Assembly: GCA_003161495.1 (NCBI GenBank)
Contig: PMOP01000455.1
Location: 1 to 13,642, forward strand
DNA: 13,642 nt
DNA from: Acidobacteriota bacterium
GTDB taxonomy: Bacteria > Acidobacteriota > Terriglobia > Acidiferrales > UBA7541
Reading direction: 5' to 3'
Below, piece by piece: positions 1-13,642 of the stretch. Numbering within the stretch: position 1 is the stretch's first letter; each line of letters opens with the position of its first letter. The position numbers and the translations under genes are program-made. The notes under the pieces are model-generated. The model had not been told where the DNA came from and did no database searches. It was given only the letters and a program-made list of their open reading frames with translations.

Positions 1-38
1 GCTGAAGAGGCTGCGGAAAAAGTTACTTATTTTATGTT

Positions 39-103
39 CCGAGTGAAGCGAGGAATCTCTCTTTTTACTTTTGGACCGAAGAGAGATTCCTCGCTTTGCT
101 CGG
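39..103. repeat. Palindromic element A (separate repeat type)
   Basis: Two 23-bp arms, 39-61 and 81-103, are inverted copies with two mismatches around a 19-bp spacer. The arm core is GCGAGGAATCTCTC. It does not begin with GTAG, so it belongs to a different family from the other repeats in this window. It lies upstream of the ThyX-like gene and may be the end of a transcript from outside the window. The rest of 1-190 shows no gene. Confidence 0.75.
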
Positions 104-190
104 CGTGACAGTTCCTGGAGTTCATCTACGATCCCTTCGTCCGCGCGGCTATTCCTATTTTGCGCGGCGGTGTAGAATGTCGCGCGAGAC

Positions 191-1813
191 ATGGCCGCTC
201 AACCGATGACTTCCCCGCAGCCGGACCGCGTGCCGTTTGAAGCCGCCGCGCCGCGCATTACCCTGCGCAATCACTTCGCGCATCCTTACGATTCGGCGAT
301 GGCCGCGGCGCGCACCTGTTACGCGCCGCGCCTGATTGGCCCGGAAGAAATCACCGACAAGCAACGCCTGCAAATCGGGGCGTCCACGTTTTACGGCGGA
401 CATCACACTGTCTACCAGCACGCGCATTTTGAATTCGGCCTCGAAAACGTCAGCCGGCAATTTGTCTGGTCGTTTCTGCATGCGCATCCGTTTTACAACT
501 CCGAGCAGCAGAGCCAGCGGTACGTGCGCCTGGATCACGCGCTCGCCTATTTGCCCGCTGAGAGGCAGGGTTTTGGCCCGGCCGAGCGCGCGATTTACGA
601 AGGCGCGATTGCGCGCGCGTGGGGCTATTACCGTGAGCTGACATCGCTTCTTCAAGGCGATGCGCGAGAAATTCTCAGCGACATCTGGCACATCGGCCCC
701 ATGTCGCACGCCAAACGCGTGCACAAAGTAGACCGGCAAGCGGAAAAACGCGCGATCGAAGTCGCGCGCTACGTCCTGCCTGTCGCGGCGGCCACGACGA
801 TGGTACACACGCTATCCGGAATTGTGCTGCATCGGCTGTGGCGGATGGCCGTGGCTTCGGATACACCTTTCGAGGCGCGCGCGGTGATCGGCGAAATGGT
901 CGCGCGCGTGCGTGAAATCGATCCGCAGTTTTTCGATCGCTTCGATAATGTGCCGATGGAGCAGGAAGAAATGCCAGAGTGGTCGCAGGCCAATTCCTCT
1001 GGCGACGCTAAAACGCAAAGCGTTGGGCCCGAGCTTCAAGGGGAAGAGTTCGCGCGGGAATTCGACGCGCGACTTGCCGGGCGCGTCTCGCTGCTGACCG
1101 ATTATTCTCCGCGCGCGCCCCGCGTTGTGGCGGATGCCTATCGCGCCGTTGTGGGCCTCACCGAAAGCGCATGCTCGGACGACGAAGCCATCGACCGGGT
1201 GCTGAATCCGGCCCGCAACACCTATCGCCTGGAAACATTGAATATCGGGGTGCACGCGCCGATTATGCGCGCGCTGCAGCACGCGAATTTCACCTTCGCG
1301 AAAAAAATCAGCCACACCGCAGACAGCCAGGACCAGCGCCATCGCATGGTGCCCGGATCGCGCCCGCTGCTGATGCTCACCGATACGCGCTCGCCGGACT
1401 ACGTGATTCCGATGCTGATTGCCGGAAACGCTCGCGCGCGCGAAGTCTACGAACGTGCGATGGCCGACGCCTGGGCGGCGAAAAACGAATTGCTCGACCG
1501 CGGAGCGCCGCGTGAAATCGCTCTGTATTTACTGCCAAACGCCCAAGCCATTCGCCTCGTCGAAACGGGCTCGCTGCTGCACCTCTTGCACAAGTGGACC
1601 ATGCGCACCTGCTTCAACGCGCAGGAGGAGATTTATCAGGCTTCGATGGAAGAGGTCGAGCAGGTCCGCTCGGCGCTTCCTTCCCTCGGAAAATATCTCG
1701 GGCCGCCATGCTACATCCGCGCGGGAATTGCCACGCCGATCTGCACCGAAGGGTCGCACTTCTGTGGCGTCAAAGTCTGGCAAGAATTTCCAAAAATCGA
1801 GCGGCGAATTTGA
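191..1813 (+). CDS. thyX: Tandem ThyX-like FAD-dependent thymidylate synthase family protein
   Basis: The product is 540 aa, about twice the usual ThyX length (roughly 220-260 aa), and appears to hold two ThyX-type domains (about 24-255 and 300-535). Canonical ThyX makes dTMP from dUMP using methylene-tetrahydrofolate and FAD. Domain 1 has GGHHTVYQHAHFEF at 69-82 and ends its FAD/dUMP motif with SQRY at 108-111. The RHRxxSxN part reads LHAHPFYN (96-103), so both Arg are lost. Domain 2 has SHTADSQD (374-381), which keeps only His and Ser. Near its C terminus domain 2 keeps the family's R-x4-AQxE pattern (R472, A477, Q478, E480), and LP pairs precede the C-terminal helices in both halves. ATG at 191 is the first start of the frame, with only a weak ribosome site. 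Membership of the ThyX fold is well supported; thymidylate synthase activity is not assured. The membrane gene at 1853 follows 39 bp later. Confidence 0.8.
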   Translation: MAAQPMTSPQPDRVPFEAAAPRITLRNHFAHPYDSAMAAARTCYAPRLIGPEEITDKQRLQIGASTFYGGHHTVYQHAHFEFGLENVSRQFVWSFLHAHPFYNSEQQSQRYVRLDHALAYLPAERQGFGPAERAIYEGAIARAWGYYRELTSLLQGDAREILSDIWHIGPMSHAKRVHKVDRQAEKRAIEVARYVLPVAAATTMVHTLSGIVLHRLWRMAVASDTPFEARAVIGEMVARVREIDPQFFDRFDNVPMEQEEMPEWSQANSSGDAKTQSVGPELQGEEFAREFDARLAGRVSLLTDYSPRAPRVVADAYRAVVGLTESACSDDEAIDRVLNPARNTYRLETLNIGVHAPIMRALQHANFTFAKKISHTADSQDQRHRMVPGSRPLLMLTDTRSPDYVIPMLIAGNARAREVYERAMADAWAAKNELLDRGAPREIALYLLPNAQAIRLVETGSLLHLLHKWTMRTCFNAQEEIYQASMEEVEQVRSALPSLGKYLGPPCYIRAGIATPICTEGSHFCGVKVWQEFPKIERRI

Positions 1814-1852
1814 TTGCCGCGCGTCTGAATCCCTGTCTGGGACATTAATGAA

Positions 1853-2329
1853 ATGACGCGCCGCGGCAGCCTCGTCTATTACCTCGCCTCGTGGATTTGC
1901 GGCGGATTGTTTCTGACCGTCGCGATGTATTTGCAGGAACAGGCATCGCCGGAAGGAATGGGGATCGGGCCATCCGGCGCCGGCGCAGCGATCATCATGA
2001 CTTATTTTCTGGTTTTGATTTTTTGCGCGTTTCTTTCGTTCGTGTTTGCGTTTCTGTTGCGGCTTTCCATGATTTGGTTGCGCGCGGAAAACCTCTGGCA
2101 ATGGGTCCTGGCCGGGATGATTCTCTCACTGCCGCTGACGTGGGGAGTGCGCTGGGCGTCTCACGCGACGGATGCGGCGGGATTGGAAGGCGCGGCGCGT
2201 CAAGTCGCCGTTTTACTTTTTCTTGGCTTGCGTGGAATCGCCGAGCGCCATCCGCTGCTGGGATTGCCCGCGGCTGCTCTCAATGCGGCGGTTCTATTCC
2301 TCATTCATCGCGCGTTCAGGCCTGAGTAG
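1853..2329 (+). CDS. Small multi-pass membrane protein, unknown function
   Basis: The product is 158 aa and mostly hydrophobic. Likely membrane segments are at about 7-27, 43-75 (possibly two), 81-100, 115-130 and 135-152, separated by short polar loops with Arg-rich ends. I do not recognise the family and see no catalytic motif. It starts 39 bp after the ThyX-like gene in the same direction, so co-transcription is likely. A nearby ATG at 1848 runs straight into a stop, which leaves ATG 1853 as the start. The last codons (Pro-Glu-stop) run into the left arm of repeat B: its GAGTAG supplies the final GAG and the TAG stop. The native C terminus may therefore have been altered by the element. 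Confidence 0.65.
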   Translation: MTRRGSLVYYLASWICGGLFLTVAMYLQEQASPEGMGIGPSGAGAAIIMTYFLVLIFCAFLSFVFAFLLRLSMIWLRAENLWQWVLAGMILSLPLTWGVRWASHATDAAGLEGAARQVAVLLFLGLRGIAERHPLLGLPAAALNAAVLFLIHRAFRPE

Positions 2330-2400
2330 GACGGGCTTCAGCCTGTCTGCTTTTGAATTTGCAAGCCTAAAACCAGACAGGCTGAAGCCCGTCCTACTCA
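2323..2400. repeat. GTAG-type paired-hairpin element B, candidate bidirectional terminator
   Basis: The arms 2323-2349 and 2374-2400 are perfect 27-bp inverted copies around a 24-bp spacer. Each arm also folds on itself around GGGCTTCAGCCTG (TTCA loop on the left, TGAA on the right). Read from the + strand, the left arm's stem includes G-T wobbles. The element overlaps the stop of the + strand membrane gene and ends 2 bp before the stop of the - strand Rieske gene, so it fills the whole convergent gap. TTTT and AAAA tracts flank the loop on the spacer side. Confidence 0.9.
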
Positions 2401-2402
2401 AA

Positions 2403-3518
2403 TCAACTTCGCCAGCGCAGCGTCACTGGCCCGTCGAGTGGATGCGCCATCGGAGCGCCCGTCTGCTGCGACACAAGATACGCCGCCTTCAACTGAAAAT
2501 ACCAGCGCGCTTGCCGGTCGGCGTCGTCGATCAGCATCATGCGCGGCTGCACTTTCAGGCCCGGCTGCTGCCGCTCGATCACGTCCTGATCCTGCGCAAT
2601 GAAGCGTTTTCCAAAGAATTTCAGGAACGGCGTCACCGGAAACCACTGAAATAAATTCCACGCGGCAACGAAATCGAGGCGACAGAGGTCACGGCGAACC
2701 GGCGTGACCGTTGTGCGATTCGTGAACCAGCGCGCGCCGCAGCGGACCTGCTCCGTGCGTATATTCGGCAGCACAAAATCGATCTGCGTCGTAACTTCTT
2801 CGCCGTAAAAGCGCAGCAACTTGTACGGGCCGCTGTTGGCAGAAGGCGCGTGTGAACTCATGCGGAAGCCTTGCGGAATCGGCTCGAACGTTTTCTGCTT
2901 TTCGCGGATGCTGCGGCGGCTGCGCCACCACCACGATTGATGCACGAAGGGGCCGTGCGCCGGGTCCATCAGGCCGACAATAGCCGTGTCCATGCTGCAA
3001 ACGAGCTCGGCGGTGAGATGCGCGATGCGGTAGCGCTCGCTGAATTTCGGCAACTCCGGGACGGGGGCGATCGTCTTTCCTTCACCCGCGCGGTCCACGG
3101 CGCGGCCTTCGGGATTCGCCAGATAGACCCACACGTAACCGTCGCGCTCCTCGCACGGAAAACTTCCCGCACAAATGCGGTCGCACTGCAGCTTGGAATC
3201 CGCCGTGATCGAGGGAATCTCCCGGCATTGGCCTGTGTGCGCGTCAAAGCGCCAGCCGTGATAGGTGCATTCGACGGTCTCTCCATCGCACGAGCCTGCC
3301 GAGAGTGGAAACGCGCGGTGCGGGCAGACATCGCGCAACGCAAACGCTTTTCCGGCGGCGTCGCGGCCGAGCACGAGTGGAATTTCCATTCGAGTCGAAG
3401 TCACCAGCGCGCGCCCATGAAGTTTGTCGCTGCGCAGCGCTGGATACCAGAAGCCCCAAAGAAATTCGCCGTCGATGCTCGACGCGGTCACACCCGGGAT
3501 GGAAAGTGGCGGAGTCAT
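2403..3518 (-). CDS. Rieske [2Fe-2S] non-heme iron oxygenase, alpha-subunit type
   Basis: The product is 371 aa. The N-terminal Rieske domain has CPH at 65-67 and CTYHGW at 84-89, giving the cluster ligands C65, H67, C84 and H87 (C-x-H-x16-C-x2-H). The C-terminal catalytic domain has DPAHGPFVH at 185-193, with H188 and H193 as probable iron ligands. D310 or D312 in AQDQDVIERQQ is the likely third, carboxylate ligand. This layout matches the pheophorbide a oxygenase/vanillate demethylase-like branch, which takes electrons from a separate reductase. No reductase gene is nearby and the substrate cannot be told. I chose ATG 3518. A longer frame exists upstream, but it would translate repeat C, and the family-like sequence begins just after this Met. 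The gene lies downstream of the START-like gene on the same strand, 160 bp away, and a possible promoter of its own lies between them. Confidence 0.88.
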   Translation of the reverse strand: MTPPLSIPGVTASSIDGEFLWGFWYPALRSDKLHGRALVTSTRMEIPLVLGRDAAGKAFALRDVCPHRAFPLSAGSCDGETVECTYHGWRFDAHTGQCREIPSITADSKLQCDRICAGSFPCEERDGYVWVYLANPEGRAVDRAGEGKTIAPVPELPKFSERYRIAHLTAELVCSMDTAIVGLMDPAHGPFVHQSWWWRSRRSIREKQKTFEPIPQGFRMSSHAPSANSGPYKLLRFYGEEVTTQIDFVLPNIRTEQVRCGARWFTNRTTVTPVRRDLCRLDFVAAWNLFQWFPVTPFLKFFGKRFIAQDQDVIERQQPGLKVQPRMMLIDDADRQARWYFQLKAAYLVSQQTGAPMAHPLDGPVTLRWRS

Positions 3519-3540
3519 GCCAATGCGCTGTGGCACGCCT

Positions 3541-3568
3541 ATGATATACCGATCGCACGCCCTCGCAA
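3541..3568 (-). promoter_or_regulatory. Candidate sigma70-type promoter for the Rieske gene
   Basis: On the - strand, TTGCGA (3568-3563) is followed after 16 bp by TATCAT (3546-3541). These match the consensus hexamers at four and five of six positions. The -10 lies 22 bp upstream of the chosen ATG, implying a short leader. The position downstream of repeat C suggests that the Rieske gene can be transcribed separately from the START-like gene. The prediction is from sequence only, and consensus matches like this do occur by chance. Confidence 0.4.
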
Positions 3569-3601
3569 TGCGATGTGGGATGGAAAGGGGTTCTTTTCTT
3601 C

Positions 3602-3682
3602 GTAGCACAGGCACTCTTGCCTGTGCGCTTTTGTAAATTGATAATTGGACGAAACCCGCACAGCCAAGAGTGGCTGTGCTAC
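3602..3682. repeat. GTAG-type paired-hairpin element C
   Basis: The arms 3602-3627 (starting GTAGCACAGGCA) and 3657-3682 (ending TGTGCTAC) form an inverted pair around an AT-rich spacer of 29 bp. Each arm is a hairpin in its own right: CAGGCA-CTCT-TGCCTG on the left and CAGCCA-AGAG-TGGCTG on the right. The arms differ from each other by a G/C exchange on both sides of the stem, so internal pairing is preserved. The terminal CTAC supplies the TAG stop of the START-like gene. Confidence 0.88.
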
Positions 3683-4644
3683 TGGCGCGCCCCAAGCACA
3701 GTAGTAGCGGGTATCGGATGGCTTGCCAAGGCGCGATGAGCGGTCATCGTTGTATCACGCCTCCGGGATCTAGCTGCGGAGGGGCGTTGCCCTTCGGGTG
3801 AAACCGCTTTTGCACTTAGCGCCGCACAAACGGCATCACGGGTCTTTTGAAGCGTCGCGGTCATGGATTCACGCGGCAGGTGTTGAAGAATTGGCCGGAC
3901 CAACCACTGAATCTCAAACGGAATGTTTCGGCTTAAAGCAATCGTTTCCAATTCGGTGTAAACTCCGCCATCCTTCTCTTCAAACCTCTGGATGGAAAAG
4001 AGGCGCCAGATGTACCCGGTCCCTTGATCGGGAGGAAGTTCATGCGCTCCGGGCCGTCCGAAATTGTCGATCTGCTGTATGCGAGTGCTGTAGGTGACGG
4101 TGTACCAGCGGTGATTATCCAGCCGGACGTTTTGCGAAACATATTCGCTGGCGATGGCGGCGGTAACAAACGGCGCTTTTTCGGCGAGCACCAGAGAAAA
4201 TTTTCGCATGGCGCCGGACACATTCAGGAGTTTCGCGTCAATCACCGCGGGATTGTAGATTTGATCGTAATGTCCGTAATCGTTCAGCATTGCAAAAACG
4301 GAGCTGAGGGTGGCATTTGGAATAAAAATGGCGCCGAGCCAATTGTGAATGAGGCCCTGCGGAACTTTTTCCGGAGTATCTTTGCTCGCGGGCTCCACAA
4401 GGATTTCTCCCTGGCGAACGCGGTCACGCCTTCCAGGCGCTTCGTCAATCCAGAGGAAAGTGGAACCTCCCGTGGCGCGGACTTTCATCTGAGAGTTAAT
4501 TCCCAGAATGTATTCATCCCACGCATTAAGGGTCTGCTGGTTCAGGTCCGCCGCCGATAACACGAGTGGCGAAGAAAACAGAAGTGCAATTAATAACGCG
4601 AGTACCTCCGCGGATGCCGCTTGCCGATCTGTCGAGCGTAGCAT
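3679..4644 (-). CDS. Secreted START/SRPBCC-like lipid-binding-fold protein
   Basis: The product is 321 aa. Residues about 13-32 (LALLIALLFSSPLVLSAA) form a signal peptide. Residues about 95-275 resemble START/SRPBCC helix-grip proteins that I recall from Acidobacteriota: GLIHNWLGAIFIP (97-109), a DYGHYDQIYNP segment (122-132), GTGYIWRLFSIQRFEE (208-223), then GGVYTELETIALSRNIP (226-242) and PRESMTATLQKTRDAV (257-272). Such folds bind hydrophobic ligands; the ligand here is unknown. GGGAG about 6 bp before ATG 4644 is a good ribosome site. The last 40 residues (about 282-321) are low-complexity and unlike a folded domain, and they end at the TAG given by repeat C. This suggests that the original stop was lost. 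It is likely transcribed ahead of the Rieske gene. The family assignment is moderate, by pattern only. Confidence 0.7.
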   Translation of the reverse strand: MLRSTDRQAASAEVLALLIALLFSSPLVLSAADLNQQTLNAWDEYILGINSQMKVRATGGSTFLWIDEAPGRRDRVRQGEILVEPASKDTPEKVPQGLIHNWLGAIFIPNATLSSVFAMLNDYGHYDQIYNPAVIDAKLLNVSGAMRKFSLVLAEKAPFVTAAIASEYVSQNVRLDNHRWYTVTYSTRIQQIDNFGRPGAHELPPDQGTGYIWRLFSIQRFEEKDGGVYTELETIALSRNIPFEIQWLVRPILQHLPRESMTATLQKTRDAVCAALSAKAVSPEGQRPSAARSRRRDTTMTAHRALASHPIPATTVLGARQ

Positions 4645-4976
4645 CGATTCTCCCTCACCGTCCTGCGCGGCCGGGAAACGCTTGGTCCAACAATGAACTC
4701 AAGCGCGGGAAGCGTCCATCCGGTGAAGAGGGTAGCTTTGGATGGGACTTTCTTTTAGGGCCTTAGCGGCATAAGAGCGGTCGATTTGCGCACTTTTGCG
4801 GGCACAGACCATGCCGAAATTGCTTCCAGCGCTAATAAAACTTCTGCCGGAGCAAATTCGTTGTTTGGAAAGGACGACAAGCGTACGATGCGCGGGGCGG
4901 CGTGGGAACAAGGAATGACACCTCGAAATCGGCAACAAGAGCCGATGAAACATTCCCTTCGGAAAGGATAATCTAG
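4645..4976. other. Divergent intergenic region with structured leader
   Basis: This gap of about 330 bp separates the divergent START-like (-) and small exported protein (+) genes and must carry promoters for both. I see no convincing gene or clear promoter pair. Near its right end are two small stem-loops. ATCGGC/GCCGAT has arms at 4928-4933 and 4941-4946. A weaker one (4954-4968, one mismatch) encloses the GGAAAGGA ribosome site of the gene at 4977. Confidence 0.5.
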
Positions 4977-5378
4977 ATGAGGTCACACAAAGGATTGCTC
5001 ACTCTTTTGCTTTTGCTGACGGCTTCGCCTCTCTGGGCAAAACCGAAAGTCGAAGTGCGAGTCAAAGTAAACGAGGGAATCGGCAAAAATCTGCCGCAAG
5101 ATTCGCTCTCCAGAACCGGCTCTTCCGTGGACGGCGCGCTGAATGCCGGCCAGGTTTTCTATTTGAACGTCACGGTGCTCTCCGACAATGCGGAGGCCGT
5201 AGCAAAAAACAATGGACAATGGTGCATCAAGGGCGATGATTTGTTGAGCAGCCTCGAATATCACGGAACGCTCGAAGGCAATAACCTGGAACTCGAGATT
5301 CCCCAAAAGAACGGGAAAATCAAGAAGAAGAGCTACGTCGTCTTCGATCACAGGTGGCGAAAACTGTCGGACATTTAG
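4977..5378 (+). CDS. Small exported protein, unknown function
   Basis: The product is 133 aa with a clear signal peptide: a basic start (MRSHK), a Leu-rich core at 7-14, and probable cleavage after LWA at about residue 21. The mature part of about 112 residues is polar, with a Lys-rich start (KPKVEVRVKV) and alternating hydrophobic residues that suggest a beta-sheet fold. There is a single Cys (in QWCIKGDD), and a Lys-rich stretch (KNGKIKKKS) lies near the C terminus. I do not recognise the family. GGAAAGGA at 4961-4968, 8 bp before ATG, sets the start. It stands alone between a divergent gene and prfA. Its stop is followed at once by a GC-rich stem-loop. Confidence 0.7.
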   Translation: MRSHKGLLTLLLLLTASPLWAKPKVEVRVKVNEGIGKNLPQDSLSRTGSSVDGALNAGQVFYLNVTVLSDNAEAVAKNNGQWCIKGDDLLSSLEYHGTLEGNNLELEIPQKNGKIKKKSYVVFDHRWRKLSDI

Positions 5379-5412
5379 CAGCGCTTGGAGCCACCGCCGG
5401 CGGAACGCGCTG
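5379..5412 (+). terminator. Possible stem-loop after the small exported protein gene
   Basis: CAGCGC (5379-5384) pairs with GCGCTG (5407-5412), enclosing a second GC palindrome CCGCCGGCGG. It starts at the base after the TAG stop. There is no immediate T-tract, so a classic intrinsic terminator is not demonstrated. Confidence 0.3.
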
Positions 5413-5461
5413 ACCATCGGCGAATTGCTTTTGCGGCGATTTCACGTTATTTTGGTACGTG

Positions 5462-5488
5462 TTGACAATGTTTTCCACGTTCTATTAG
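5462..5488 (+). promoter_or_regulatory. Weak candidate promoter upstream of prfA
   Basis: TTGACA at 5462-5467 is a perfect -35 hexamer. The best -10 nearby is TATTAG (5483-5488), four of six matches, but the 15-bp spacing is short. It lies about 105 bp before the prfA start. A 5-bp inverted repeat CACGT/ACGTG (5443-5461) lies just upstream. Confidence 0.3.
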
Positions 5489-5593
5489 CCGCAACCCTTC
5501 CTCGACTCCGCCACGCGGAGCCGCCGCGCGAATTTTTTCTCTCGAAATGAAGCCTTTACTCCGACTGGAATTCTATTTGACAGGGGCAAAGCC

Positions 5594-6685
<1,092 letters not shown>

Positions 6686-6687
6686 AA

Positions 6688-6713
6688 GTAGCACAGGCTA
6701 AATCCAGCGCCAC
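6688..6713. repeat. Possible eroded GTAG-type element
   Basis: The short stretch between the prfA stop and prmC starts GTAGCACAGGCT and ends CAGCGCCAC, like the outer ends of elements C and D, but the hairpin cores are missing. It could be a deletion remnant; the match is too short to be sure. Confidence 0.3.
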
Positions 6714-6723
6714 AAATTGAAAT

Positions 6724-7671
6724 ATGAAAACCTGCCGCGATGTCATCATGGGTCACCGGTCACTGCATCCCTCCGTGCGTGATAAAGCCATCACGGACAT
6801 TCGCTCCGCACTTTCCGACGGCATCGCATTCCTCGCTAGCCAGAACGTGCCATCCGCAGAATTGACCGCGGAGCTACTGCTCATGGACACGCTTGAAAAA
6901 GACCGCGCTTGGCTGTATGCACATACGGATCTGAAACTCGCCGGGACAACACTGGAGCAATATTTTATTTTGCTCAGTCGTCGAGCGAACGGTGAGCCAA
7001 CGCAGCACTTAACGGGGTATCAGGAATTTTGGGGCATGGATTTCGTTGTCACGCCTGACGTGTTAATTCCCCGCCCTGAAACCGAGCACGTCATCGAAGT
7101 TGCGATCGAGCGCCGGGCAACAGGCTCCGGTGGCGGCTCAGCGCGTCGCGACCAACCATTTCGCATCGTCGATGTAGGCACCGGCTCCGGATGCATCGCC
7201 ATCGCTCTGGCGAAGGAATTCCCCGCCGCGCAAATCTTCGCGACAGATATTTCCGCCGCCGCGCTCGAAGTGGCGCGACACAATGCTGCACGCAACGTGG
7301 CCCATTCGCGGATTGAATTCGTCGAATGCAACTTGATGGATGCGCTCTTGCAACAGGCACAACGATTCGACCTCATCGCCAGCAATCCGCCCTACATCGC
7401 GCTGGGGGAAGCGGAGTCATTGCCGCGCGAAGTTCGCGAACATGAACCTGCCGTAGCGCTTTTCGGCGGCGAAAAAGGCACGGAACTTTACGCGCCGCTA
7501 ATCGCGCAAGCGGCGGCTCTTCTCAAGCCCGGCGGCCTCCTGGTGCTGGAACTTGGGCATAATTCCGCGCAACACGTGTCTTGCCTTCTAGCTGCCTCCG
7601 AGTGGGCAAGCTTTGCTATCACCAACGACCTTGCGGGAATTCCGCGCGTTGCATCCGCGCTGCAGAGTTGA
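6724..7671 (+). CDS. prmC: Release factor glutamine N5-methyltransferase
   Basis: The product is 315 aa. PrmC transfers a methyl group from S-adenosylmethionine to the Gln of the release-factor GGQ motif, which speeds termination. The helical substrate-binding N-terminal domain covers about 25-115 (PSAELTAELLL at 43-53). It is followed by the family signature VLIPRPETEH at 113-122, the SAM-binding loop VDVGTGSGCIAIALA at 149-163, the acidic TD at 174-175, and the catalytic NPPY at 221-224. The first 20 or so residues are extra relative to the family, so the true start could be downstream, for example the Met at residue 9; no strong ribosome site decides this. A Gly/Ser-rich insert (GSGGGSARR, 134-142) precedes the Rossmann domain. 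The gene directly follows prfA, whose product is its expected substrate, and repeat D follows its stop. Confidence 0.95.
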   Translation: MKTCRDVIMGHRSLHPSVRDKAITDIRSALSDGIAFLASQNVPSAELTAELLLMDTLEKDRAWLYAHTDLKLAGTTLEQYFILLSRRANGEPTQHLTGYQEFWGMDFVVTPDVLIPRPETEHVIEVAIERRATGSGGGSARRDQPFRIVDVGTGSGCIAIALAKEFPAAQIFATDISAAALEVARHNAARNVAHSRIEFVECNLMDALLQQAQRFDLIASNPPYIALGEAESLPREVREHEPAVALFGGEKGTELYAPLIAQAAALLKPGGLLVLELGHNSAQHVSCLLAASEWASFAITNDLAGIPRVASALQS

Positions 7672-7675
7672 TTTA

Positions 7676-7749
7676 AGTAGCGCGGGCTTCAGCCTGCGGG
7701 GTTTCGCCCATCAAAAAGTCAAAATCCGCAGGCTGAAGCCCGCGCCACT
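7676..7749. repeat. GTAG-type paired-hairpin element D
   Basis: The arms 7676-7699 and 7726-7749 are inverted copies of 24 bp with one mismatch around a 26-bp spacer. The core CGGGCTTCAGCCTG is shared with element B. Each arm can form its own hairpin with a TTCA or TGAA loop. It begins 4 bp after the prmC stop and ends 46 bp before the NUDIX gene. It may therefore stop or attenuate transcription within an otherwise co-directional run. Confidence 0.9.
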
Positions 7750-7795
7750 CAAACCACTTCCATTTTTTGCGCTAGTATTGTTGGGCGGAGAACAC

Positions 7796-8383
7796 ATGGA
7801 CGATACAAAAAATCCCTGGACCGTGCTCAAAGGGGCGACCGTTTACGAGAACGAATGGATTCGCGTGGATCATCACGAGGTTTTGGATCCTTCAGGTGGC
7901 GCTGGAAAGTACGGGACGGTTCACTTCAAGCAGGAAGCCGTGGGCGTCGTTCCGATCGACGAAAATGGAAATGTCGTCCTGGTGGGGCAGTACCGATTTC
8001 CGCTTCAAGCCTATAGTTGGGAAATTCCGGAAGGCGGCGGATCGCATTCCGTGCCCGCTCTCGGATCCGCACAGCGCGAACTCCGCGAGGAGTGCGGGCT
8101 TTCCGCAAAACGCTGGATGGAAATTCTCAGCATGGACCTTTCCAATAGCGTCACAGATGAACGCAGCACAACGTTCCTGGCCTGGGATCTTTCCGAAGTC
8201 CCCGCGCAGCCGGATGAAACGGAAAAGCTGCAGGTTGCGCGAATTCCTTTCTGGGAGGGTGTCGATCGCGCCAAGCGAGGTGACCTTCGCGATTCGATCA
8301 CCGTCGCGGCTCTGCTTCGCGTTGCTTTGATGGCGCTGCAGGGTGAATTGCCGGAACAAATTGCGAGAGCGATCGGCCGCTAG
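7796..8383 (+). CDS. NUDIX hydrolase, ADP-ribose pyrophosphatase-like
   Basis: The product is 195 aa. It probably hydrolyses a nucleoside diphosphate linked to another group, with ADP-ribose or an ADP-sugar the likeliest by resemblance to the ADPR pyrophosphatase branch (VGQYRFPLQAYSWEIPEGG at 63-81 before the box). The Nudix box runs from G80 to L102. RELREECGL at 94-102 keeps the metal-binding REXXEE core, but the first Glu of G-x5-E is Val86. I chose ATG 7796 because GGCGGAG lies 5 bp upstream. A longer frame would read through repeat D and add about 61 unlikely residues. The gene is on the same strand as prmC, 124 bp away, but D separates them, so co-transcription is uncertain. It converges on the next gene with an 8-bp gap. 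Confidence 0.9.
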   Translation: MDDTKNPWTVLKGATVYENEWIRVDHHEVLDPSGGAGKYGTVHFKQEAVGVVPIDENGNVVLVGQYRFPLQAYSWEIPEGGGSHSVPALGSAQRELREECGLSAKRWMEILSMDLSNSVTDERSTTFLAWDLSEVPAQPDETEKLQVARIPFWEGVDRAKRGDLRDSITVAALLRVALMALQGELPEQIARAIGR

Positions 8384-8391
8384 CTCGAATG

Positions 8392-8718
8392 CTAGACACC
8401 AAACGCTTTTTGGCCCCAATGGGCGGGTTGCGGAGGACTCAACTTTTTCTGAAGCATACGGAAGGAGATACTTTCTTTGTGGATGCCGCGGGCGCGAATT
8501 GTTTTAAGACGCCCTCGCAGGCGATCCGGATCCATTCCGGCGGAAGAGCAAACCGCCTTGAAATCGCTGCTGTCGTCAAAAAGAAAATGTTCCGCTTTGC
8601 GGCTGAAACTGAGCGGCCCGCAAATCCATTCTTCCAGGGTTTTTGTGATCACGGCGCGCCAAAGTCTTTCCTCCGCCGTGGCCCGGTCGTGGGTGGACAC
8701 AAGAGAATTTTCAAACAT
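8392..8718 (-). CDS. Small helical protein, unknown function
   Basis: The product is 108 aa and has no signal peptide. It looks mostly helical: EERLWRAVITKTLEEW at 16-31, then KAEHFLFDDSSDFKAVCSSAGMDPDRLRGRL at 41-71 as two adjoining helical stretches. The pattern W..VI..., A..FLF...DF..VC..AG.DP..LR is familiar to me from short uncharacterised proteins of Acidobacteriota and phages, but I cannot name a family. The last 25 residues are polar and probably disordered. ATG 8718 has a GGGGG run 8 bp upstream; an in-frame TTG at 8733 is an alternative. Its stop abuts the stop of the NUDIX gene, the tight convergent packing expected of a real gene. Confidence 0.6.
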   Translation of the reverse strand: MFENSLVSTHDRATAEERLWRAVITKTLEEWICGPLSFSRKAEHFLFDDSSDFKAVCSSAGMDPDRLRGRLKTIRARGIHKESISFRMLQKKLSPPQPAHWGQKAFGV

Positions 8719-9044
8719 GTGGATGGCCCCCAACTCAAAATTGTATTCAGTGAACGCGCCGTTACGTGCAGTCGAAGGGCCACAATGCCATCGAATTCGG
8801 AAAGAAACGGCAGGCTGTGGGAAACTTTTTAGCCTTTCATCGGATTATTCGTAATTCGCGGCTTTAGCGGGTCTCGCGCCTTGCCTCTTTGGGCACTAAA
8901 ATCTCCGTGGACAAATTTGGGCGCTGTGGAAAACCGTTTCCTTCGGGAGAAATCCACGACAAATGTTGGGAAATTTTTCCGCGACGATAGAAAATTTACA
9001 AAAATTAGACGAGGGTTTCGTATGGCGATGGTATCGTTAAAACT
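8719..9044. other. Intergenic region with two GGAAA/TTTCC palindromes
   Basis: About 325 bp without a supported gene lie between the PPOX-type gene and the small helical protein gene. They contain two short palindromes of the same type, 8928-8941 (GGAAA-ACCG-TTTCC) and 8969-8980 (GGAAA-TT-TTTCC), centred 40 bp apart in AT-rich sequence. Open frames here show no recognisable protein features. Confidence 0.4.
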
Positions 9045-9599
9045 TCATCCCGCCGTTTTTTCCAGCCCCTGTAAGCGGTCAATACTCTCCCGGTTCTTTT
9101 CCTGCCGGTAGGTTTTCAATCCATCGCGTCCGAGTTTGTGAGTCCAAGCGGAAAGCTGGCTGCGTTCGCCTTCGTACTGCAGCAGTGGAACGGCGTACCC
9201 GCAGGAATCGGAAATGCGGGAAGCCTCAATCAAGATGATCGCTCTCGCTCCTTCATGTTCTGGAAAGCGAGCCGCAAGACCGGAAAATTCCGGATGTTCG
9301 GGCTCGATCACTCTTCCTTGTCCATACAGCCGAAAAATTTTCGGCGCTCCCTGAAATGCGCAGAACATCAGGACGATTCGCCCGTTTTCTTTTATATGTG
9401 AGACGGTCTCAATGCCGCTACCGGTCAGATCCAGATAGGCAATCGTCAAAGGCCCCAAGACTCGAAGAGTGTCCAGCCCCTTCGGCGAGACATTTACGTG
9501 ACCGCCGGGATCGAGCGGCGCCGAGCCCACGAAGAAGACGGGCTGGGCTTCGATAAATTTCCTGACCGTGTCGTCAATCGTCGAATAAATTTTCCCCAC
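9045..9599 (-). CDS. Pyridoxamine 5'-phosphate oxidase (PPOX)-fold family protein
   Basis: The product is 184 aa, a split-beta-barrel flavin-binding type. Family-like segments are the N-terminal IDDTVRKFIEAQPVFFVGSA (8-27), the signature GGHVNVSPKGLDTLRVL (32-48), AYLDLTGSGIETVSHI (54-69) and GRIVLMFCAF (73-82), then KIFRLYGQGRVI (87-98). Members bind FMN or F420 and act on small substrates; this one is not PdxH itself and its substrate is unknown. Start GTG 9599 is chosen because AAGGAG (+ strand 9613-9608) lies 8 bp upstream. The open frame continues upstream but would translate repeat E. It is followed 326 bp later by the small helical protein gene on the same strand, and lies divergent from dinB. 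Confidence 0.88.
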   Translation of the reverse strand: MGKIYSTIDDTVRKFIEAQPVFFVGSAPLDPGGHVNVSPKGLDTLRVLGPLTIAYLDLTGSGIETVSHIKENGRIVLMFCAFQGAPKIFRLYGQGRVIEPEHPEFSGLAARFPEHEGARAIILIEASRISDSCGYAVPLLQYEGERSQLSAWTHKLGRDGLKTYRQEKNRESIDRLQGLEKTAG

Positions 9600-9650
9600 G
9601 GGTGCCACTCCTTCAGAAACGATATGAGCGCAATAATTTCTCGGACTAAT

Positions 9651-9715
9651 GTAGCGCCAACCTTCAGGTTGGCATTTCAGGGTCACGCAGATGCCCGCCT
9701 GAAGGCGGGCGCTAC
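9651..9715. repeat. GTAG-type paired-hairpin element E
   Basis: The left arm 9651-9674 starts GTAGCG and folds as GCCAACC-TTCA-GGTTGGC. The right arm 9692-9715 folds as GCCCGCC-TGAA-GGCGGGC and ends CGCTAC. The arms pair less well with each other than each does internally. The element lies in the divergent gap between the PPOX-type gene and dinB, 52 bp upstream of the PPOX start. Confidence 0.9.
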
Positions 9716-9861
9716 CAAAAGACGGATTTTTTCGCAAACTCTTCAGCCCATCCTAGCACGCGAGTTTTGATGCGCGATTGTGCAGGGCATCGAAACTAAA
9801 ATTGGGCGCAGCTACTTCTTCGCTCTATATTCGCCTGGGTGTATAGTAGCGGCTGACCACC

Positions 9862-11124
9862 ATGCCGAAGTTCGCCACGTTCCGGGCCAAGCACGATTCT
9901 GGCGCGGAGTCCTCGTCCCCGGTCTCCGCCAATTCCCTGCCTTCCTCCACTTCCATTTTGCATGTCGATATGGATGCATTTTTCGTTTCGGTCGAATTGC
10001 TGGACCGGCCCGAATTGCGCGGCAAGCCCGTCGTCGTTGGCGGCCAGCCGGACCAGCGCGGCATTGTTTCCACCGCGAGTTATGAGGCTCGGAAATACGG
10101 CATTCACTCGGCGATGGCGCTTCGCACAGCCGGGCGGCTATGCCCCCACGCGATATTTCTCGAACCGCGGCACCATCTTTATTCCGAATGGAGCGACCGC
10201 GTCGCGACCATTCTCGGAAAATATTCGCCGGTGGTGGAAATGGCTTCGGTGGACGAAGCGTATCTGGACCTCGCCGGGACGGAGCGGCTGCATGGGCCGC
10301 CGCTTGCTGCCGCGGATGCGTTGCTTCGTGAAATCACTGCGACGACCGGACTGCCGTGTTCCGCGGGCCTGGCGCGCACGCGCCTCGTCGCCAAAGTGGC
10401 GAGCGATCAGGCCAAGCCGCGCGGCCTGGTATGGGTTCCGGCGGAAAGCGAGGAGGCGTTTCTCGCTCCGCTGGACGTGCGGCGCATTCCGGGAATCGGC
10501 AAAGTCACCGAAGCGGCTCTCAAATCGGCGGGCATCGAAAAAGTCGGCCAGCTCGCCGCAATGCCGCTCGAAAAGCTCGAGCAAAATTTTGGGCGCTGGG
10601 GCACGGCGCTGTATCGCAAAGCGCGCGGCGGCGACACCTACGAATTTTTCGTGGATGCGGAGCCGAAAAGCATTTCGCACAACCGGACATTTTCAGAGGA
10701 CACGCGGGACCGCGCGGCACTGGACGCGACGCTCAGCCTGCTGTGCCAGAAAACGATGAAGCGTTTGCGCGAGGCAGGGCTGAGCGCTTCCACAGTTACG
10801 CTGACCATCCGGTACGAGGGATTTGAAACGATTACTCGCGCCTCCACGTTGCACGAGTCCACGCACCTCGATCCGATCGTGTTCGATGCCGTGAAGAAAT
10901 TATTTGAGCGGAACTGCGACCGCGCAAGAAAAGTCAGGCTTCTGGGCGTTGCGCTTTCTTCGTTCACGCATGGCGGAGAGCAATTGGACCTGCTCGATGC
11001 GCCGCGCCGCGAAAAACTGGAGCGCCTGTCACAAGCCACCGACGCCCTGCGCGACCGCTTCGGATTTTCAAAAATTCAATTCGGCGGCTCGCTGTCCAAA
11101 ACGCACGCGGAGGAAGACGAATGA
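9862..11124 (+). CDS. dinB: DNA polymerase IV (Y-family)
   Basis: The product is 420 aa, an error-prone translesion polymerase of the Y family, and has no visible accessory domain. HVDMDAFFVSVE at 34-45 carries the first metal ligand D36 and the likely steric-gate F41. ASVDEAYLDLAG at 128-139 carries D131 and E132. CSAGLARTRLVAKVASDQAKP (166-186) is the family's palm/finger stretch. RIPGIGKVTEAAL at 208-220 is the helix-hairpin-helix DNA-binding motif. EPKSISHNRTF (267-277) opens the little-finger domain. EQLDLL at 373-378 resembles a sliding-clamp binding motif. The first 30 residues, rich in Ser and Pro, are extra compared with E. coli DinB. ATG 9862 is the first start but has no clear ribosome site. 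I see no convincing LexA site. Element F follows 13 bp after the stop. Confidence 0.95.
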   Translation: MPKFATFRAKHDSGAESSSPVSANSLPSSTSILHVDMDAFFVSVELLDRPELRGKPVVVGGQPDQRGIVSTASYEARKYGIHSAMALRTAGRLCPHAIFLEPRHHLYSEWSDRVATILGKYSPVVEMASVDEAYLDLAGTERLHGPPLAAADALLREITATTGLPCSAGLARTRLVAKVASDQAKPRGLVWVPAESEEAFLAPLDVRRIPGIGKVTEAALKSAGIEKVGQLAAMPLEKLEQNFGRWGTALYRKARGGDTYEFFVDAEPKSISHNRTFSEDTRDRAALDATLSLLCQKTMKRLREAGLSASTVTLTIRYEGFETITRASTLHESTHLDPIVFDAVKKLFERNCDRARKVRLLGVALSSFTHGGEQLDLLDAPRREKLERLSQATDALRDRFGFSKIQFGGSLSKTHAEEDE

Positions 11125-11137
11125 AAAAGCATGTATT

Positions 11138-11208
11138 GTAGCGCCGGCGTCCCGCCGGCAGTTTTGCCGCGTGGGAAACGAAAAACGCCGGCGGGACGCC
11201 GGCGCTAC
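11138..11208. repeat. GTAG-type paired-hairpin element F, candidate bidirectional terminator
   Basis: The arms 11138-11159 and 11187-11208 are perfect 22-bp inverted copies. Each contains the self-pairing GCCGGCG-TCC-CGCCGGC. The 27-bp spacer is less symmetrical. The element occupies the gap between dinB (+) and the convergent - strand gene. Immediately to its right the CGCTAC end is repeated (11211-11216), and this second copy provides the TAG stop of the - strand gene. Confidence 0.92.
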
Positions 11209-11212
11209 TACG

Positions 11213-12013
11213 CTACTTCGCCGGGACCGTGCCCGGATCCGTAGCCGTCAAGTCGCCGCTCCCTTTGAAGTTCGCGGACTCCGACGGCCGGCAGAATGTT
11301 TCCGCAAAATCCCAGTCCGGCTTGAGCGTGAAGTCGATGGCCATTTTCCAGGGCTGCGCGTACGCTTTGGGATCGTTCAGTGTAAGATCGAGCCGCATGT
11401 GATCGCGGTCTATTCGGTGAAAGCGTTCCACGACGAGCAAGGCATCGCTGTGAGGAAAACCGGCTCGATTGATCCAACCCCAGCCGGAAAATCCGGCGGT
11501 ATCGACAACCAAATCATTTCCGTCCCAGTGCCCCAGTGAATATCCAAGCGCTCTCGGCACGCCGCCATTGTCCGGCATGGGCCGGCCATTCATCCAGATC
11601 GTGCGCCACGTGTGAACGACTTCGTAGAAAAGGAAAATCCGATCGGGGCGGTCCTTTGCCTGATACACCTCAACGAGGGAGGAACCTAAATCGTAAATTC
11701 GAGGAACACCGGCCGGCTCGCAGGTAAATGTTGGATCGACGGTAATCACGCCCGTAGTTTTCAATTCGGCGGTGTTGGCGTTAAACCTGGACTGCGCTTC
11801 AGGCATCATGTCCGGTGGCTTTCCGATGGAGTGCAGCCCTCCTCCCAATCCTCCTGACCATTGGCCGGAAAGATCATGCGGGTCAAAGGCCGGCTGGGTT
11901 TTCGCCGCGCCGGGGCCGGGCGCGCCTTGCGCCAGCAGCGCCGGAGCGAAGGCCAGCACGTTCATCAGAGCCAGCACCGCGATCGATCCAGTAAAGTTTT
12001 TTGACATGCTCAT
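11213..12013 (-). CDS. Secreted protein of unknown function, third gene of exported operon
   Basis: The product is 266 aa. The signal peptide covers about residues 1-29 (hydrophobic 10-28, cleavage probably after LLAQ or ALLA). The mature protein carries conserved-looking motifs of an uncharacterised secreted family that I recall from Acidobacteriota and proteobacterial genomes: LSGQW (48-52), DPTFTCEPAGVPR (93-105), FLFYEVVHTWRTIWMNGRP (127-145), ALGYSLGHWDGNDLVVDTAGF (155-175), FPHSDALLVVERFHRID (186-202) and LNDPKAYAQPW (212-222). The two Cys (98, 241) could form a disulfide. No catalytic function can be assigned. GGAAGA 5 bp before ATG 12013 supports the start, though Met3 is possible. 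It lies 56 bp downstream of the DUF6152 gene, in the same operon. The stop TAG comes from the GTAGC copy beside element F. Confidence 0.78.
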   Translation of the reverse strand: MSMSKNFTGSIAVLALMNVLAFAPALLAQGAPGPGAAKTQPAFDPHDLSGQWSGGLGGGLHSIGKPPDMMPEAQSRFNANTAELKTTGVITVDPTFTCEPAGVPRIYDLGSSLVEVYQAKDRPDRIFLFYEVVHTWRTIWMNGRPMPDNGGVPRALGYSLGHWDGNDLVVDTAGFSGWGWINRAGFPHSDALLVVERFHRIDRDHMRLDLTLNDPKAYAQPWKMAIDFTLKPDWDFAETFCRPSESANFKGSGDLTATDPGTVPAK

Positions 12014-12069
12014 GGAAATCTTCCATCTTCGTCCCTCAAAATCGTGGAACGAAGAACTTGTCCCCGGAA

Positions 12070-12495
12070 TTAATTCACCGGCGGCGATGGAGCCGCGCCG
12101 GATCCATTTTCATCGAGATTCAGCGATTGGCCATGAAAGACGATCTTGCTTTCCGGTATGCGGATATAACCGTTTCCGCTGCCATTTTTTGCCGGATGAA
12201 AAGTGACCAGGATTTCGTCGCCAGGTTTCAATGTGTCCTTCGTCCAGCCCGCGCGCGCCATCCACAATGGATTGTACATTTCCAGCGTCCAAGTGGTGAC
12301 CGCGCCCTGCTCATCTTTAGCGTCGAACTTCAACGTGCAATGGGGATTTCCCCAGTTCAGGCTCGTTACCGTCGCTTTGGCTGTGATCAGCTTCGTAAAA
12401 TCGTAGGCCGAGCTTCCGTGATGCGCGAAGCTGGACGAAGAAACGAGCGACAGGGCCGCCAACGCCAAAATAATTTTCAGGAGATTGATTTTCAT
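12070..12495 (-). CDS. DUF6152-family exported protein
   Basis: The product is 141 aa. The signal peptide is MKINLLKIILALAALSLVSS plus SSFA, with predicted cleavage before His25-His26 in AHHGSSAYDF. The remainder matches the DUF6152 pattern as I recall it: KATVTSLNWGNPHCTLKFDAKDE at 40-62 with the NPH motif, a W.LEMYNPLWMARAGW stretch at 69-83, then LKPGDEILVTFHPAKNG (88-104). The fold is probably a small beta-barrel and the function is unknown. If cleavage is as predicted, the mature chain starts His-His, which could suit metal binding; this is inference. AGGT 7 bp upstream supports the start. It sits 19 bp after the NHL gene and 56 bp before the third gene, so the three are probably co-transcribed. 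Confidence 0.82.
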   Translation of the reverse strand: MKINLLKIILALAALSLVSSSSFAHHGSSAYDFTKLITAKATVTSLNWGNPHCTLKFDAKDEQGAVTTWTLEMYNPLWMARAGWTKDTLKPGDEILVTFHPAKNGSGNGYIRIPESKIVFHGQSLNLDENGSGAAPSPPVN

Positions 12496-12514
12496 GAGTG
12501 ACCTGAACTTTTCC

Positions 12515-13507
12515 CTACTGCGCGACTAATTTATCCAGCCGCCAAGCCTGCTCTTCCGCCGCATACACGGTTTTCTCGTCCGGGCAAGCGACGGCGTGCA
12601 CCCAATCCATAGTTCCGGGAGTTCGTCCGTAGTGTCCAAACGTCCCGAGAACTTTGCCGGTGAGATCGAGCTTATAAATTTTTCCCACGCTGCCTACATA
12701 AATGACCTGGGTCGGCCCGGGCGTGATGCAAAACGACCACGGCGGGCCCGGCAGATTGGTCCACATTTGTTTGAAATTACCGTCGGTGTCGAAAACCTGA
12801 ATGCGGCTGTTGCCCCGGTCGGCTACGTACAGGTTCTGATTTTTGTCGATGACGATGCTGTGCGGCGTGTTGAACTCGCCTTTCCCGTTGCCGCGCTCGC
12901 CCCAGGCTTTCACAAAATTTCCTTCCTTGTCGAACTTTGCCACGCGCGAATTGCCGTAGCCGTCGGAAACGAAGACGCTGCCGTCCTGGGCCCACGTCAC
13001 GTCGGTCGGCTGATAGAACGCGACCTTGGGAGGAACGGCGTGCTCAATCACGTGTGTCGTCCACGTCCAGGGTTCCGGCCGCATCCCGAGAACTTCTTGC
13101 GTGCGGCCCTCCAGATCGAATTTGATGACCATATTGGACGCCGCATCGATGTACCACATGTTGCCTTGCGGATCGAAGCGAATCGTGTGCGCGCCCTCGA
13201 ACTCCCCCGATCCTTCGCCCATCGAGCGGACGAACGCGCCTTCGGCGTCGAATTCGAGCAGCGGATGATAGCCGCGATTAAGAAGAAATATGTGGCCCTT
13301 GGAATTGACGGCCACGCCGATTACTTCGCCCAATACGTACGTGGCAGGATAATGAAAAAAGTTTTCGACGAGATGCAGCGGAAGTTGCGGCGGCGTGACG
13401 TTGTCACCTTGCGTGCCTCCGTTGCCTTGCGCGCCGGCCGGCGTGATGTACACAAACGCAAAAGTGGCGGCAAACAAAATTGGCAAAATGAAACTTCTCT
13501 TGGTCAT
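12515..13507 (-). CDS. Exported NHL beta-propeller, peptidyl-alpha-hydroxyglycine lyase-like
   Basis: The product is 330 aa. The signal peptide ends near residue 26 (ITPAGA-Q). At least five NHL-type blades follow, for example GHIFLLNRGYHPLLEFD (71-87), GNMWYIDAASNMVIKFD (115-131), GSVFVSDGYGNSRVAKFD (176-193), QNLYVADRGNSRIQVFD (224-240) and a last one at about 303-325. The layout resembles the lyase half of peptide-amidating enzymes (PAL). Possible zinc His are H107 (AHT), H216 (PHS) and H304 (VHA); possible active-site partners are R78, Y184 and R231. This alignment is from memory of PAL and needs a structural check. I chose ATG 13507 because GGGGG lies 5 bp upstream and a good signal peptide starts here; a longer frame adds 36 unlike residues. 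It is the first gene of the three-gene exported operon. Confidence 0.83.
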   Translation of the reverse strand: MTKRSFILPILFAATFAFVYITPAGAQGNGGTQGDNVTPPQLPLHLVENFFHYPATYVLGEVIGVAVNSKGHIFLLNRGYHPLLEFDAEGAFVRSMGEGSGEFEGAHTIRFDPQGNMWYIDAASNMVIKFDLEGRTQEVLGMRPEPWTWTTHVIEHAVPPKVAFYQPTDVTWAQDGSVFVSDGYGNSRVAKFDKEGNFVKAWGERGNGKGEFNTPHSIVIDKNQNLYVADRGNSRIQVFDTDGNFKQMWTNLPGPPWSFCITPGPTQVIYVGSVGKIYKLDLTGKVLGTFGHYGRTPGTMDWVHAVACPDEKTVYAAEEQAWRLDKLVAQ

Positions 13508-13535
13508 TTCTACCCCCAGGCGGACGGATGCCGGG

Positions 13536-13566
13536 AGTATATGCTCCTTGCTATTACGCAGCAAGG
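13536..13566 (-). promoter_or_regulatory. Candidate promoter with overlapping inverted repeat for the exported operon
   Basis: On the - strand, TTGCTG (13564-13559) and TATACT (13541-13536) are separated by 17 bp; the -10 matches consensus at five of six. A perfect inverted repeat CCTTGCT-attacgc-AGCAAGG (13546-13566) covers the -35 and most of the spacer, where a repressor would block RNA polymerase. The operon's first ATG is 28 bp downstream of the -10. Confidence 0.45.
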
Positions 13567-13627
13567 TCCACGCAAAGCCTCCACGATTATTCGGCTTTTG
13601 GCTATGTTGCGCCATGGCTTTGAATAT

Positions 13628-13642
13628 GTAGCGGCCGCCTTC
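13628..13642. repeat. Left end of a further GTAG-type element, cut by the window edge
   Basis: The last 15 bases, GTAGCGGCCGCCTTC, match the outer part of the right arm of element E read on the other strand, with one difference. The rest of the hairpin would lie beyond the window. Confidence 0.55.

Follow-up and report, generated by a model that had tools for sequence, protein, structure and literature searches.

Paired hairpins in the window

The window analysed here is the whole stretch of 13,642 bases, that is, bases 1-13642 of the 14,060-base contig PMOP01000455.1 (contig C187 of assembly G000) from an Acidobacteriota bacterium. Between its genes lie short elements consisting of two inverted hairpin arms around a spacer, which we read as REPINs, i.e. 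hairpin-forming doublets of repetitive extragenic palindromic (REP) sequences, probably moved by REP-associated tyrosine transposases (RAYTs). The assembly, referred to below as the own genome, comprises 3.93 Mb in 544 contigs and is 72.6% complete.

When the window was searched for GTRG-type ends with matching inverted arms, five full elements were found (e1 to e5, Table 1), compared with a mean of 0.04 per window in 50 two-base-block-shuffled windows, and the search returned no full element beyond the five. An earlier note on this DNA had described the same five copies; its loci hold, but two of its intervals (2323-2400 and 7676-7749) take in adjacent bases, and the exact bounds are those in Table 1. 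The cut copy that it placed at 13628 is a genuine sixth element split by the window end: on the contig, GTAGCGGCCGCCTTC is followed by an assembly gap of 34 N (13643-13676) inside the element and then by CCGCTAC, which ends at contig position 13683. A possible remnant at 6688 is best read as a single decayed inverted REP arm, with 6 mismatches to the nearest consensus arm, and is plausible rather than shown. Among the ten arms of the five full elements, nine carry a GTAG tag and one, at 7748, carries GTGG. At its gathering threshold, Rfam yielded no match.

All five full elements sit close to gene ends or starts. The left tag of e1 provides the TAG stop (2327-2329) of gene 1853-2329, and the convergent gene 2403-3518(-) terminates 5 bp past the right end of the element. 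Likewise, the called gene 3679-4563(-) ends on a TAG (3681-3679, - strand) that belongs to the right tag of e2. Element e3 begins 5 bp beyond the prmC stop codon at 7671. Element e4 lies between the divergent genes 9045-9608(-) and 9862-11124(+). The nearest named match of the window PrmC is from an Acidobacteria metagenome-assembled genome (47% identity, in a contig scan that offered distant relatives only). Gene calls were home-made, and the caller at its first threshold misses genes such as 12070-12495, so that all gene contexts given here are approximate.

Table 1. REP-type features of the window (positions 1 to 13,642).
Feature	Position	Strand	Description
e1, REPIN	2326..2397	.	arm type B (GTAGGACGGGCTTCAGCCTGTCTG)
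e2, REPIN	3602..3682	.	arm types C and C1
decayed single REP arm (plausible)	6691..6713	-	GTGGCGCTGGATTTAGCCTGTGC; between prfA and prmC
e3, REPIN	7677..7748	.	arm type A; left tag GTAG, right tag GTGG
e4, REPIN	9651..9715	.	arm type D
e5, REPIN	11138..11208	.	arm type E; between convergent 9862-11124(+) and 11213-12013(-)
sixth element, left end	13628..13642	+	type D-like; continues beyond the window

Arm types and pairing

Each arm consists of a GTRG tag and a stem of 8-9 bp closed by a loop of 2-4 nt, with a T-rich tail inside the element in most types. Two such arms stand inverted around the spacer as a head-to-head REP dimer, and the commonest total length is 72 bp. At 218 ends sampled across the genome, where the GTRG tag was a search condition, 56% of the tags were GTAG and 44% GTGG. 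The copies had been taken for one family. Their ends are indeed shared beyond chance, but at least seven arm types occur in this one genome, of which A2, A3 and F were found outside the window.

Differences between arms mostly leave the individual hairpins intact. The two arms of e2 differ by one compensated G-C/C-G swap, and those of e4 by two compensated pairs (CCAACC..GGTTGG on the left, CCCGCC..GGCGGG on the right). Of the two-sided differences, 21 of 24 keep each arm's hairpin paired and break the long arm-to-arm pairing; among the one-sided differences, 41 break a pair and 30 retain pairing via G-T. Stem cells are paired in 93-100% of cases depending on type. Types A and C exceed every shuffle in this respect; in types D, E and F, which vary little, stem pairing was not separable from shuffling. 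The arm differences thus preserve the small hairpins, a sign that what is recognised is the individual hairpin and not the long one formed between the arms.

All six type F REPINs (L039 1223, L049 5262, L122 923, L123 11394 and 13684, and L126 3235) are asymmetric at stem pair 5-22, which is T-A in one arm and C-G in the other, each arm being internally paired.

RAYT genes beside matching REPs

The window itself contains no RAYT-type transposase gene; RAYT genes are present elsewhere in the genome together with the same REP types, and the elements had been rightly filed as REP/BIME-like (bacterial interspersed mosaic element) sequences of a RAYT-type transposase. Six Y1 transposase matches were found in the own genome, on contigs C361, C474, C28, C422, C16 and C20. 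The C474 RAYT has type C REPs, the type of e2, on both sides, one of them providing its stop codon. The C28 RAYT is flanked by A2 REPINs, with an A2/A heterodimer about 0.9 kb upstream that is the only occurrence of type A, the type of e3, near a RAYT. A type F arm preceded by GCT lies 46 nt upstream of the C422 RAYT. C361 encodes an IS200-type TnpA and has no REP beside the gene, and C20 runs off the contig end.

The RAYT proteins carry NHVH, a W and a YIE.N.V tyrosine region. H99, H101, W137 and Y158 are invariant in 16 of 16 aligned proteins (from 16 of the 30 fetched loci), and the best solved match of the RAYT profile is TnpA-REP 4er8 (E 2.8e-8). The NCBIfam model of the REP-associated tyrosine transposase placed C16, C422 and C20 over its cut-off (three of five RAYT-like proteins). 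Of 81 family genomes (own included), 24 hold a relative of C474 with an E value no higher than 1e-15. A tagged hairpin lies within 150 nt of the gene at 24 of 30 fetched RAYT loci; the same is true for 66 of 600 random spans and for 5 of 19 prmC loci.

Several of these loci have settings of their own. The C16 RAYT (L080 1416-2011) is enclosed by two inward-pointing single GTGG hairpins GTGGGTCGCGGCTTCAGCCGCGAC, as is its counterpart in the relative G001 (L081 1395-1990), an arrangement that resembles a REPIN with the transposase gene in place of its spacer. In the region L126 1447-7312 (and L004), the A2-type RAYT of C28 has a terminase-large-subunit-like gene (PHROG match) as one neighbour and, as the other, a 910-aa open reading frame that contains two REPINs in frame and has no Pfam or PHROG match; a prophage-like setting is possible. 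Among viral contigs, none had the exact REP pattern of the C28 RAYT, and three had one type C arm each. Beside RAYT genes in relatives, REP arms recur at regular intervals: three + arms spaced 62 bp at L143 2104-2228, and - arms spaced 44 or 88 bp at L156 2062-2352.

Placement relative to genes

Gene contexts were counted in a pooled set of 60 sequences (552 kb, 109 elements), which includes 19 extra contigs picked for model matches or RAYT genes and excluded from the density estimates below. Of the 109 elements, 31 lie between convergent, 50 between same-strand and 15 between divergent genes, 10 have one neighbour unknown, and 3 lie inside called genes. That no recognisable gene is interrupted is true in the window, and in the wider set the 3 of 109 compare with 64% of random placements. 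Of the 119 facing gene ends, 7 use the tag's own TAG as their stop and another 7 a TAG that shares the first base of the tag. REPs have been reported before both to lie just past stop codons and to supply TAG stops through their tags (Di Nocera et al. 2013, PMC3733652).

This placement also favours a rival reading, in which the hairpins persist chiefly as signals in RNA (two-way transcript-end, mRNA-stabilising or translation-coupled hairpins) and their mobility is long past. Relative to random positions within the same gap, the elements are nearer to facing stops and farther from starts: 45 of 81 lie within 10 nt of a facing stop (random mean 31.5, with no more than 40 in any of 200 draws), and 5 of 65 within 10 nt of a facing start (random mean 13.5). 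The convergent setting is in excess, at 31 of 96 elements with both neighbours known vs 61 of 363 neighbouring gene pairs, and in four of the five window elements (not e4) one arm is a terminator-like match with a T-rich tail. On the other hand, the window shows no excess of terminator-like matches (22 vs 19.7 in shuffles, sd 4.2), and the arm differences preserve the small hairpin rather than the long hairpin that would be available to a transcript. A role in RNA also leaves the strict tag, the type-specific RAYT partners and the dispersal of whole units unexplained. We therefore consider it unlikely as the main explanation, and compatible with REPINs as a secondary role.

Dispersal and abundance

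Whole REPINs disperse as units with unrelated flanks. Of 108 elements, 36 fall into 60 pairs whose copies are 90% or more alike; the mean identity of the flanks in these pairs was 26%, with one pair at 56%. Short, palindromic, dispersed and non-coding elements of this kind could also be miniature inverted-repeat transposable elements mobilised by a DDE transposase. This is very improbable, as no target duplication of 2-8 bp rose above permutation among the 109 elements and the tagged single-hairpin arms adjoin Y1 transposases, although no search was aimed at DDE transposases.

The prmC locus gives a view of individual sites. Of 19 prmC loci (own and 18 relatives), a paired element lies directly downstream in the own genome (e3, type A) and in G004, where an element of another type follows the prmC match by 5 bp. 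G005 has a full REPIN just upstream of prmC, on a contig that starts there so that prfA is not visible; G006 has a different short hairpin pair just upstream, and the remaining 15 loci have no paired element within 400 bp. The PrmC proteins of the sister species are 64-67% identical to the own protein. The presence of different types at prmC in sister species fits recurrent insertion, and could also reflect arm exchange at an old insertion.

Density was estimated from 40 contigs chosen by number (294,357 bases, four trimmed at 20 kb), in which an element was defined as lying within 5 mismatches of the consensus arms. This sample held 43 elements, or 1 per 6.8 kb, which extrapolates to about 575 elements per assembly; a consensus-free filter gave 42. 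With five full elements in 13.6 kb the window has about 2.5 times the sample average, and the figure of about one per 2 kb given earlier was overstated. A looser finder returned 53 pairs in 308 kb including the window, four of them judged by eye not to be REPs. Enrichment across the genome, for which a covariance-model search had been suggested, was borne out by the sample counts and by a model built on the five window elements and three more at RAYT loci, eight in all. The first look listed 2,069 candidates, counting both strands; 150 of them were scored, and all 150 matched. By the consensus-free filter, the relatives have 23 elements in 140 kb (G001), 7 in 107 kb (G004) and 7 in 140 kb (G005). 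Many weak hairpins do arise in GC-rich sequence, but there is next to no likelihood that these are chance hairpins, with 33 arm pairs in 180 kb of real sequence vs 2 in 901 kb of shuffled sample, and 99 arms at most 4 mismatches from the seven consensus arms in 308 kb vs none in one shuffle.

Repeats were also considered as a general cause of the broken assembly. This was rejected, because contig ends are not REP-enriched (2 of 78, whereas 2.75% of 150-nt windows placed at random inside contigs hold a REP); the gap at 13643 is a single instance.

The elements as REPINs

Taken together, we propose, with a probability of about 0.93, that the elements are REPINs: non-autonomous miniature mobile elements in which two inverted GTRG-tagged REP hairpins surround a short spacer, probably moved by matching RAYTs that are encoded elsewhere in the genome. 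The anatomy, the copy number, the dispersal as units, the pairing within arms, and the matching REPs beside RAYTs in the genome and the family form the basis of this proposal. A RAYT, as an HUH/Y1 transposase, would bind the folded single-stranded REP with the GTRG tag serving as guide, would cut a short site just outside the tag, and would move or copy the whole REPIN with no duplication of target bases, each RAYT lineage having its own REP type. Surviving copies would lie mostly just past stop codons, presumably because insertions there are the least harmful, and some may double as two-way transcript-end hairpins.

Several results weigh against this proposal. The genome-wide RAYT search, suggested earlier, located RAYTs flanked by window types, but types B, D and E (e1, e4 and e5), three of the five, have no flanked RAYT among the six matches in the 72.6% complete own assembly. 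The C28 and C474 proteins score 70.5 and 65.2, below the NCBIfam RAYT cut-off of 80. Six of the 30 RAYT loci lack a tagged hairpin by the strict test; the own C28 locus is among them, since a T-T mismatch in the stems of its REPs makes them fail on strict stem pairing, and two more have distant proteins (35% identity). The hairpin type of C16 has one other copy (5 mismatches) in the sample. Finally, no movement was seen, and no base-level empty site was readable, the relatives being too distant.

A motif outside the tags

At the 218 sampled ends, information outside the tags rises only in the last 7-8 bases. The outer motif is about GG.TTTNA in types A, A2, A3, B and C; the outer bases are T-rich in types D and E, and type F has a GCT outer end at 10 of 12 ends. 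From the T-rich flank common to D and E one would predict that these two types have a RAYT lineage separate from that of types A to C. The motif recurs with other arms in a sister species, G001, where 42 TTCA-loop ends give gg.tTtcA in the last eight bases; the 14 ends of G005 give a similar, weaker motif, and the 14 ends of G004 give no clear motif. The motif arises independently at the two ends of an element: TT at -4/-3 (n=103) occurs at the left end only in 27, at the right only in 25, at both in 25 and at neither in 26. Flank-to-flank identity over -7..-1 is 2.67 of 7 vs 2.66 when permuted within type, so the motif is not inherited as a matched pair, and a shared inherited outer stem was rejected on this ground.

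We offer only tentatively, as an idea with the odds somewhat against it, that the outer motif may reflect the cleavage or target preference of each RAYT lineage at both REPs, in which case REPIN insertion would be symmetric, with each REP choosing its own half-site. If the motif is the cut site, it would be a handle on how RAYTs choose their cutting and insertion sites. In one TnpA-REP the tag acts as the guide, for CT via A3/G4 and for CA via T2/G4 (PMC8266576). The published guide rule pairs A with T2 of GTAG, and T with A3. It would account for the GTGG tags tolerated in types A, A2 and A3, which have A at -1, and for GTAG at 26 of 26 ends in types D and F, which have T at -1. Other results speak against the rule: types B and C prefer A at -1 yet have GTAG at 54 of 56 ends, which the rule neither requires nor forbids; type E gives a mixed picture; and within-type tests were not significant, the association of guide base 3 (A/G) with flank base -1 missing significance in all four sets (p 0.14-0.71).

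Relation to known systems

The elements belong to a known kind, found here in a little-studied group. The GTAG superfamily of REPs (PMC3733652) has the same GTAG/GTGG tag, stems of 6-13 bp, short loops (many TY), head-to-head homo- and heterodimers with complementary stem changes, and repeat-specific RAYTs. The GG.TTTNA, T-rich and GCT outer motifs seen here are not described in the accessible part of that paper, whose text (Figure 1 aside) discusses Acidobacteria for transposases flanked by terminal inverted repeats (TIRYTs) and yielded no GTAG family from Acidobacteria. In Pseudomonas fluorescens (Bertels and Rainey 2011, PMC3116915) the dispersing unit is likewise an inverted doublet with its spacer; there, doublets share spacers, the RAYT acts in trans, excision was seen, and the mode of dissemination was called unresolved. 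Unlike those REPINs, the present ones have other arms, another host group and at least seven types in one genome.

The BIMEs and REPtrons of E. coli and other gammaproteobacteria (Nunvar et al. 2010, PMC2817692; PMC8266576) share with the present system the RAYT between inverted REPs, the HUH/Y1 protein and the REP tag at or beside the RAYT stop codon. The bulge of the E. coli stems is absent here, where most stems pair perfectly over 8-9 bp, and unlike E. coli-type systems the C28/C474-type proteins have a conserved N-terminal NLPHW..TWRL.GSLP region and fall below the NCBIfam cut-off. IS200/IS605 elements also have a Y1/HUH transposase, subterminal hairpins, guide bases beside the hairpin and no target duplication, whereas the elements here carry no gene and have the same inverted tagged hairpin at both ends.

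For the phylum, RepRanger (PMC12306157) counted palindromes in three Acidobacteriota genomes by its own criteria, and PMC6006769 describes a Y1 class whose secondary structures are atypical and which it assigns to Planctomycetes, Acidobacteria and Proteobacteria. In the open-licence literature, as far as it was accessible, we found neither these REPINs nor their outer motif described, and within the range of our search a type-specific outer motif is less documented than other REP features. The present results describe a REPIN/RAYT system in Acidobacteriota, a phylum that the texts consulted discuss mainly for TIR-flanked transposases; the system comprises several lineages of RAYT, and each of these lies next to a REP type of its own.

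A further inverted repeat lies at window positions 33-109, with arms at 39-63 and 79-103; the right arm on the - strand is TGTCACGCCGAGCAAAGCGAGGAATC, and the left arm has no tag. We take this repeat to resemble a TGTC/CGTC-type REP dimer. The 552-kb sample contains three arms of the TGTC/CGTC type, one of which matches the string known for this type perfectly.

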